Below, in pieces: positions 23,440 through 25,380 of a stretch of DNA of 64,000 nucleotides. The DNA comes from Megasphaera coli (GTDB lineage Bacteria > Bacillota > Negativicutes > Veillonellales > Megasphaeraceae). Made by a program: the position numbers and the translations under genes. Location of the stretch: NCBI RefSeq assembly GCF_900095855.1, contig NZ_FMIY01000002.1:301322-365321 (forward strand), given 5' to 3'. The notes under the pieces were generated by a model, which saw only the letters and a list, made by a program, of their open reading frames with translations, did no database searches and was not told the DNA's origin. Numbering within the stretch: position 1 is the first letter of the stretch; every line of letters begins with the position of its first letter.

Positions 23440-24030
23440 ATGAAGAAGATAATTACGGCAGCACTGATGGCTGCGCTTGTTTCGGCCGGTGCTATGGTGT
23501 ATGCGGCAGGAACACCTGTTCAGAATCGTCAGGAAGGCGACTTGAAGGTCGATCTCAACTACGGCTTCAATCAGAAGATGGGACATCATGACGCAAAGAG
23601 CCAATTTTCCGGCGGTGATATAACGTATGCGCTCAACGACAAAGTAGATATTCAATATGACAACAACAACACAAAAATCGACGGCGGCAGCGCTAAAGTA
23701 AATGAGCATGCCGTGAGAGCCATTTATCATATTAACCCGTATATCTCCGCTTTCGGCGGCGCAACTCGCGTCGATGTGAAGAACGGTTACCGGGATCATT
23801 ACTATGGCGGCCAGGTCGGCTTGGAAGGACAGGTTCCCATTGCCAATAAAGTGACGGGCTTCGGCTCCGTCGGTATCGGCGATGACGTCAACACCTATGA
23901 AATCGGCGTGGGCTACAACTTCACCGATAACCTTGATGCGCATATCAAATACCGCCGCGACGATGTGGACGTCAACAATTATGACGATGATGTCAAAGGC
24001 TGGCAGGTCGGCGTAGGGTACAAATTCTAA
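23440..24030 (+). CDS. Small outer-membrane beta-barrel protein (YfaZ/OmpX-like)
   Basis: A 196-residue secreted protein with a classic signal peptide (two lysines, hydrophobic core, cut expected after VYAA at about residue 23). The mature part alternates polar and hydrophobic residues in about eight strands separated by short turns and charged loops (DRKYRDH-like and DDVDVNN stretches), and it ends in GVGYKF with a terminal Phe, the recognition signal for outer-membrane barrel assembly. Size suggests an eight-stranded barrel. Function is unknown. It has its own strong promoter and terminator. Confidence 0.8.
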   Translation: MKKIITAALMAALVSAGAMVYAAGTPVQNRQEGDLKVDLNYGFNQKMGHHDAKSQFSGGDITYALNDKVDIQYDNNNTKIDGGSAKVNEHAVRAIYHINPYISAFGGATRVDVKNGYRDHYYGGQVGLEGQVPIANKVTGFGSVGIGDDVNTYEIGVGYNFTDNLDAHIKYRRDDVDVNNYDDDVKGWQVGVGYKF

Positions 24031-24083: not shown

Positions 24084-24145
24084 GTATAGCGGGAAACATC
24101 GGGGCGTAAGTTTTGAATCGGTATTGTTTCGACAGAAAAGAGCCG

Positions 24146-24174
24146 TTATTTTTAATAAAACAATGTGATATAAT
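24146..24174 (+). promoter_or_regulatory. Promoter of the 24.2-kb structured RNA
   Basis: A perfect TATAAT at 24169-24174 is preceded at 17 bases by TTATTT (24146-24151). The predicted first base falls at about 24181, exactly where the closing helix of the RNA begins. Confidence 0.7.
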
Positions 24175-24180
24175 AAATAA

Positions 24181-24411
24181 ACACGTGCTGTGGTTGAAAG
24201 TCGATGCCAGTCGCAGGCGAAGCGATCCACGTAAGGAACCTGATACGGTTCCGATCATAGTGCGGCCTAGAGGTAAGACCTGCCGCGAAAAGCGAGAGAA
24301 GCAGTAGTGGGGGACAATTGTCTATGAGCGAACCTTCCGGCAGGCGGGTGTGGGGGTAAAAACCAGGTCAGACGTGTAATCAGAAAAGAACTGCTTCGGC
24401 AGTTCTTTTTT
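24181..24411 (+). ncRNA. Structured non-coding RNA of unassigned class (about 200 nt plus terminator)
   Basis: No convincing gene exists at 24084-24490, but the sequence is highly structured. ACACGT at 24181 pairs with ACGTGT at 24372; the helix continues inward with CTG/CAG and TGGTT/AACCA. Inside are the hairpins GGAACC/GGTTCC (24235-24252) and GCGGC/GCCGC enclosing AGGT/ACCT (about 24262-24286), then a long, probably single-stranded or pseudoknotted G-rich part. A terminator with a TTCG tetraloop (24387-24411) follows, and a TATAAT box sits seven bases upstream. It lacks the RNase P, tmRNA, SRP and common riboswitch signatures I know. The raiA motif or a divergent 6S RNA are possible; the class is unresolved. 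Confidence 0.8.
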
Positions 24412-24441: not shown

Positions 24442-24470
24442 TTGACGAACAGTTGCCGGTATAGTAAAAT
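24442..24470 (+). promoter_or_regulatory. Promoter of the hotdog-protein genes
   Basis: TTGACG at 24442-24447 and TAAAAT at 24465-24470 with a 17-base spacer, downstream of the RNA gene's terminator. This shows the RNA is not simply a leader of the next gene. Confidence 0.7.
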
Positions 24471-24517
24471 AGTAACGTCTTTATAATAAATTGCCGGGAA
24501 GGCGCAAGAGGTTTCAT

Positions 24518-24940
24518 ATGGTCGAAGAAATATGCGGAGCGGAAGCGGATTTGCAGCAAAGTCCCTTGGACAGGTATATCGGATTTGCCGTTCACGAAGC
24601 TGACGAAAAAAAGGTGCGGCTGCGCTTTTTTAATGAAAGCCACGGTTGGGACAATCCGAACGGAACCACGTGCGGCGGTATTTTTTATACCATGGCCGCA
24701 TCGGCTATGAAAAAAGCCTGCCTCATGAAGGGGAAACGGGTACACTTGTCGGATATGGCGGTTAACCACCTTCGCCCGGGCTTTGCCGACATGTGCATTA
24801 CGGTGGAGGCCGAGGTAATTCACGACGGACGCACAACCATGCTCGCGCTCTGCGACTTTTACGACGATAAGGGAAAATATCTGGCTCACGGCAAGGGCAC
24901 TTTTCTCGTAAAGCCGACAGGTGAAGGAGAGGCGGACTGA
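24518..24940 (+). CDS. Hotdog-fold acyl-CoA thioesterase-like protein
   Basis: A 140-residue protein of the PaaI/4HBT hotdog family. The NPNGTTCGGIFYTMAASAM segment (about residues 46-64) is the typical turn into the central hotdog helix, where NxxGTxxGG carries the active-site residues, and the later VNHLRPG stretch is the usual dimer strand. Such enzymes hydrolyse acyl-CoA thioesters; the substrate is not known. The ATG at 24518 is chosen because AGAGG lies seven bases upstream. It overlaps the next gene by one base. Confidence 0.75.
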   Translation: MVEEICGAEADLQQSPLDRYIGFAVHEADEKKVRLRFFNESHGWDNPNGTTCGGIFYTMAASAMKKACLMKGKRVHLSDMAVNHLRPGFADMCITVEAEVIHDGRTTMLALCDFYDDKGKYLAHGKGTFLVKPTGEGEAD

Positions 24941-25380
24941 TGGAACGGAAGCAGTTGACGCCGCCCGAAAAAGCCGCTCTTCTAAAGGCATGCAGGGAAA
25001 TATACGAAATGACGCCCTATTTTCGGCACATCCCCTACGAAATCACAGATGCGGACGCCGGCCGGATAAGTGCGGCGTTTCGTATGGAACCGTACTTTTG
25101 TGACGGTGACGGCATCGTATCACCCGGTATTTTAACCGCCTTTTGTGATACCCTGATGGGATATTCCTGCCGCACCTTGGGTTACGGTGTTACGACATTG
25201 GAAATTAATATGAATTATGTGCGCCCCGCTCGGGCGGGAGAACGGCTGCGCGGCACGGGAAGCGCCGTTCGTGCAGGTAATGAGACCGTAGTGACGGAGG
25301 CCGTCATTACCGGTGAAGACGGAGAGGTTGTCGTCAAAGGACGGGCATCCTTCTATGTTTTACGAAAACCGAATGAATAA
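24940..25380 (+). CDS. Second hotdog-fold protein (PaaI-like)
   Basis: A 146-residue hotdog-domain protein directly coupled to the previous one by a one-base overlap. The central part GIVSPGILTAFCDTLMGYS and the NMNYVRPARAGE strand match PaaI-type thioesterases, but the family's catalytic HGG is replaced by SPG, so it may bind rather than hydrolyse acyl-CoA. The adjacent acyl-CoA dehydrogenase suggests a role in acyl-CoA metabolism. Confidence 0.7.
   Translation: MERKQLTPPEKAALLKACREIYEMTPYFRHIPYEITDADAGRISAAFRMEPYFCDGDGIVSPGILTAFCDTLMGYSCRTLGYGVTTLEINMNYVRPARAGERLRGTGSAVRAGNETVVTEAVITGEDGEVVVKGRASFYVLRKPNE

Follow-up and report, generated by a model that had tools for sequence, protein, structure and literature searches.

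Few structured RNAs of clostridia are as abundant and conserved as the raiA RNA, also named ModT. According to the ModT paper (PMC11706538), it is abundant and acts in trans, and ModT could be complemented in trans in Clostridioides difficile. Deletion phenotypes are described in the same text: in C. difficile they concern sporulation and c-di-GMP levels, in Clostridium acetobutylicum sporulation and aggregation. The gene neighbourhood is variable there, raiA/HPF and comFC being frequent, and neither obligatory nor defining, neighbours of the RNA. A cryo-EM structure (PMC11751092) has a pseudoknot, pk-1, of seven pairs between the P3 loop and the pk-loop, and a second one, pk-2, of just two Watson-Crick pairs, as well as non-canonical tertiary contacts.

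Here, we analysed a window of 64,000 nucleotides from Megasphaera coli. An Rfam covariance-model search matched RF03072 (raiA motif/ModT RNA) to positions 24178–24380 of the forward strand, the strand of all features given below, with 179.3 bits against a gathering cut-off of 101.3 and an E-value, for the window, of 1.4e-45. The alignment spanned positions 1–209 of the 209 in the model, i.e., its full length. No second copy was present in the 1.71-Mb assembly; this one is at position 325499 of G000:C1. We hold it as nearly certain that this RNA and its flanks form a single-copy, free-standing gene for raiA/ModT RNA. The class is already known, and the window copy represents it as a genuine, well-formed and unexceptional example. 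An earlier note on this DNA had described a structured RNA of unknown class, perhaps raiA-type or new, and had proposed an Rfam search. The raiA-type suggestion stood and the new class was ruled out by the full-length match of 179 bits, so that the novelty is gone and the RNA gene stays. Sub-cut-off overlaps with other Rfam families (RsmY, with 25 bits, and BASRCII26) appear to arise by chance from the terminator.

The window RNA shares with the raiA/ModT RNAs of C. difficile and C. acetobutylicum the full model length, all helices, pk-1 and the conserved single-stranded segments, as well as its own promoter, a nearby intrinsic terminator, and a free-standing, single-copy gene. It differs in lacking the outermost P1 pairs of the model and in having A-C as one end pair of pk-1, which 9 of 60 homologues share. 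The host differs in having no Spo0A and no detected GGDEF domain, and in carrying the raiA (HPF) gene ~118 kb away.

The fold is closed by helix P1, whose 5' arm (24181–24195) pairs with a 3' arm (24361–24377) holding the conserved ACCAGGTCAG, as recognized from the homologue alignment and covariation. Nine of the 14 P1 pairs had two-sided changes among 60 homologues. Helix P3 (24206–24218) pairs 24206–24208 with 24216–24218, with C-G to U-A and G-C changes, and carries a 7-nt loop (24209–24215). This loop is the 5' strand of pk-1, and its partner is 24261–24267 in the pk-loop. Six of the seven pk-1 pairs are formed in the window, and 97.9% of the cells were paired across the homologues. Three of the seven changed on both sides, the exchanges between the P3 loop and 24261–24267 being C-G/U-A, A-U/G-C and U-G/A-U. 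The P5 hairpin, GGAACC/GGUUCC (24235–24252), had two-sided changes in five of six pairs. The P6 arm (24279–24344) pairs 24279–24283 with 24340–24344 and encloses P7 (24284–24294) and P8 (24298–24337). In the P6/P7/P8 arm, 93.7–100% of the cells were paired across the 60 homologues, and most of the variable pairs changed on both sides.

For covariation we used a sequence alignment of 60 distinct homologues from the taxonomic class. The pair list combined Rfam and the published description with the fold computed for the window, and the pk-2 pairs were left out of the counts. Across this 47-pair structure 98.3% of the cells were standard pairs and 25 pairs had two-sided changes; the helices thus covary among homologues, a check which the earlier note had named. 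The covariation score was 0.424, compared with 0.167 for shuffles and 0.03–0.08 for slid partners, the latter control being somewhat flattered by the use of a sequence alignment and of a structure taken beforehand, which does not affect the two-sided changes. Many positions were invariant, including some in unpaired segments. The folding energy (z −2.3) was moderately unusual and is weak evidence by itself; the convincing evidence is the covariance-model match together with the covariation over the 60 homologues. A nested hairpin found in the minimum-energy fold, 24210–24214/24222–24226, had no two-sided changes, and one of its pairs was broken in 47 of 60 homologues. We preferred pk-1 over this hairpin, because pk-1 covaries and the hairpin does not.

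Upstream of P1 there is an extended −10 element, TGATATAAT (24166–24174), with TG at 24166–24167 and TATAAT at 24169–24174. As previously noted from the sequence, TATAAT ends six bases ahead of P1, which starts at 24181. The −35 element, TTATTT (24146–24151), is weak, with two of six consensus matches. Most relatives have TTGACA or TAGACA 17–18 bases ahead of TATAAT. Within the genus, the degenerate −35 with an extended −10 is a trait of the window genome, most congeners carrying TTGACA. A sigma-70-type site with at least 9 of 12 matches and a spacing of 16–18, directly before P1, was found in 72% of 67 homologous loci, compared with 11% of shuffles.

Downstream, an intrinsic terminator (24384–24411) was recognized from sequence and fold. 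It has a stem formed by 24384–24394 and 24399–24409, a TTCG loop (24395–24398) and a run of T's through 24411. A simple terminator scanner did not report 24384–24411, most likely because the stem extension consumes the T-run; a separate search recovered it. The earlier reading of a TTCG-loop terminator after the fold was thus borne out. Terminators within 90 nt downstream were present in 34 of 66 homologous loci, versus 3.8% of shuffles. The same reading had also placed a separate promoter before the next gene. A promoter-like TTGACG-17-TAAAAT does occur at 24442–24470, but such sites were no commoner than in shuffles.

To place the RNA among genomes, we counted it alongside Spo0A and GGDEF domains. 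Of the 61 genomes in the window's order, 60 had the raiA RNA, always as one copy, among them all 53 good assemblies (at least 90% complete, at most 5% contamination). In a class sample of 200 genomes, 149 had the raiA RNA, 56 the Spo0A_C domain and 131 a GGDEF domain. Among the genomes listed, 98 had the RNA without Spo0A, 51 had both and five had Spo0A alone. The window's order was represented in this sample by 45 genomes, all without Spo0A_C. Within the order, 13 of 61 genomes had a GGDEF match, which in two was marginal or fragmentary, and 11 of 61 had an EAL match. As the window genome is ~90% complete, these absences rest mainly on its relatives.

A rival reading gives the RNA a conserved role in controlling sporulation or c-di-GMP levels, as in C. 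difficile and, for sporulation and aggregation, in C. acetobutylicum. The deletion phenotypes (PMC11706538) speak for it, as does a small HD-GYP-type gene adjoining the RNA in many relatives. Against it, Spo0A was missing in 98 of the 149 raiA-positive genomes of the class. No diguanylate cyclase (GGDEF) domain was detected in 48 of the 60 raiA-positive genomes of the order, an absence which leaves room for c-di-GMP made by another kind of enzyme. Conversely, family f14, abundant in GGDEF (42 listed genomes with such domains), had no raiA RNA in its sampled members, nor did one turn up when eleven of these genomes were searched again with higher sensitivity. The RNA is thus dissociated from the processes flagged by the deletion phenotypes, for GGDEF in both directions. 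Since it is kept without Spo0A, and mostly without GGDEF, we infer that sporulation and c-di-GMP synthesis cannot be its conserved function here, and consider a conserved role in governing them unlikely. The presence of ModT in non-spore-formers had already been noted by its authors (PMC11706538), who, in the passages considered here, do not take up its persistence in genomes free of GGDEF domains.

The sampled f14 genomes all lack raiA although most are near-complete and GGDEF-rich, an apparent clade-wide loss that looks like one event. A divergent raiA RNA in this family was considered and rejected: the re-search gave scores of ~10 bits, with E-values that control genomes reached too. Two further genomes, G051 (f16, 99% complete) and G057 (f22), have Spo0A, and the raiA RNA went undetected in them even by sensitive search.

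The HD-GYP-type gene, for a minimal stand-alone protein of ~205 aa, lies divergently upstream of the RNA in 39 of 67 loci. These loci are from families f3, f4 and f18 (e.g., L004:453-1067 and L034:1770-2411, plus 37 more), and those within the order belong mostly to genomes without GGDEF domains. Of the 61 genomes in the order, 55 encode such a protein above the cut-off. All 39 RNA-adjacent copies carry L, H, Q or M in place of the HDxGK lysine, whereas the copy of the window genome (G000:C1:226212-226700; L081:1680-2294) is non-adjacent and keeps this lysine. By sequence, the nearest solved relatives are a 3'3'-cGAMP phosphodiesterase and c-di-GMP phosphodiesterases. In genus g6, an RNase P RNA gene precedes the raiA RNA by ~100 nt in the same orientation (L008:1055-1398, L021:1791-2135), so that the two RNA genes form a small cluster. 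Both the HD-GYP-type and the RNase P RNA genes may be mere neighbours, inherited together with the RNA. A more novel reading would make the minimal HD-GYP-type protein (~205 aa, divergently encoded beside the RNA in families of two orders, with the HDxGK lysine lost, HHExxDGxG[YF]P kept, and mostly in GGDEF-free genomes) the ancestral partner of raiA in the class, and the pair could sense or turn over another nucleotide signal or an RNA end. We regard this as improbable; if true, the c-di-GMP effect seen in C. difficile would have branched off from it.

With respect to its surroundings, the window RNA lies between the gene of a porin-like OMP (OMP_b-brl; 23440–24030) and a pair of thioesterase-type genes (24491–25380). 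The order kept in the window's family is heptosyltransferase, OMP, RNA, two thioesterases and acyl-CoA dehydrogenase. Other groups have an HD-domain protein, the RNA and a solute-binding protein, or elsewhere Sir2, the RNA and cysS. We did not meet raiA/HPF and comFC as neighbours; HPF is at G000:C1:443301, ~118 kb from the RNA at 325499. As the neighbourhood is reported to be variable, this does not count against membership in the class.

This gene order, with a same-strand gene downstream, would suit a cis-acting riboswitch or leader of the thioesterase and acyl-CoA dehydrogenase genes, and Rfam types RF03072 as "cis-reg; riboswitch". T-box and other leaders are likewise structured RNAs upstream of a gene and have terminators. 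However, unlike them, the raiA RNA has no common downstream gene across families. Its neighbours are stable within groups only, and the gene downstream varies by family (solute-binding protein, cysS, serine acetyltransferase-like). In L003, L023 and L027 a separate T-box leader stands between the RNA and the next gene. No conserved downstream gene under control of the RNA was found among these differing genes with their independent T-boxes. Further points against a leader are the terminator directly after the fold and the complementation in trans (PMC11706538). We consider the cis-acting reading very unlikely; genomic context and the published complementation support the earlier view of an RNA gene, not a leader.

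A divergent 6S RNA, which the earlier note had also suggested, would likewise be free-standing, ~200 nt long, with a closing helix and a link to growth phase, but sequence and fold are other, the window has the RF03072 match and none to RF00013 (6S), and the genome encodes its 6S RNA elsewhere, in a gene of its own (G000:C1:834544-834721), leaving this reading with practically no probability. Equally negligible is a small protein, e.g., from the 64-aa TTG frame that is open at 24113–24307, as in 66 of 67 homologues the RNA has stops in all three forward frames, homologue lengths (189–226) are not kept in multiples of three, there is no conserved reading frame, and conservation tracks the base pairs.

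As a free-standing raiA/ModT gene, the locus is predicted from its sequence to be transcribed from a vegetative sigma-70-type promoter into an RNA of ~230 nt, about 24181 to 24409. The transcript would end at the intrinsic terminator and fold into the compact pseudoknotted raiA structure. By analogy with the clostridial work (PMC11706538), it may be abundant, stable and trans-acting when cells pass from growth into stationary phase. What it conservedly does in this lineage would be neither the control of sporulation nor that of c-di-GMP synthesis, because the window genome and most of its relatives are without Spo0A and GGDEF domains. We propose instead that the RNA is constitutive and has a housekeeping task, which the folded molecule itself performs, probably together with a protein or ligand. 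Others have suggested a ribozyme-like role, based on the structure and on raised tRNA and 5S levels in the deletion (PMC11706538). We judge the chances of a housekeeping RNP or ribozyme-like mechanism to be about evenly balanced.

The useful part of this survey is the presence pattern, which narrows the function of the raiA/ModT RNA. What it adds is the near-universal retention of the RNA in an order that lacks Spo0A and in which most genomes have no c-di-GMP cyclase domains. Because this order keeps one copy under these conditions, and a related GGDEF-rich family has lost raiA, the small-genome members of the order are cleaner systems for the basic function of the RNA than spore formers.
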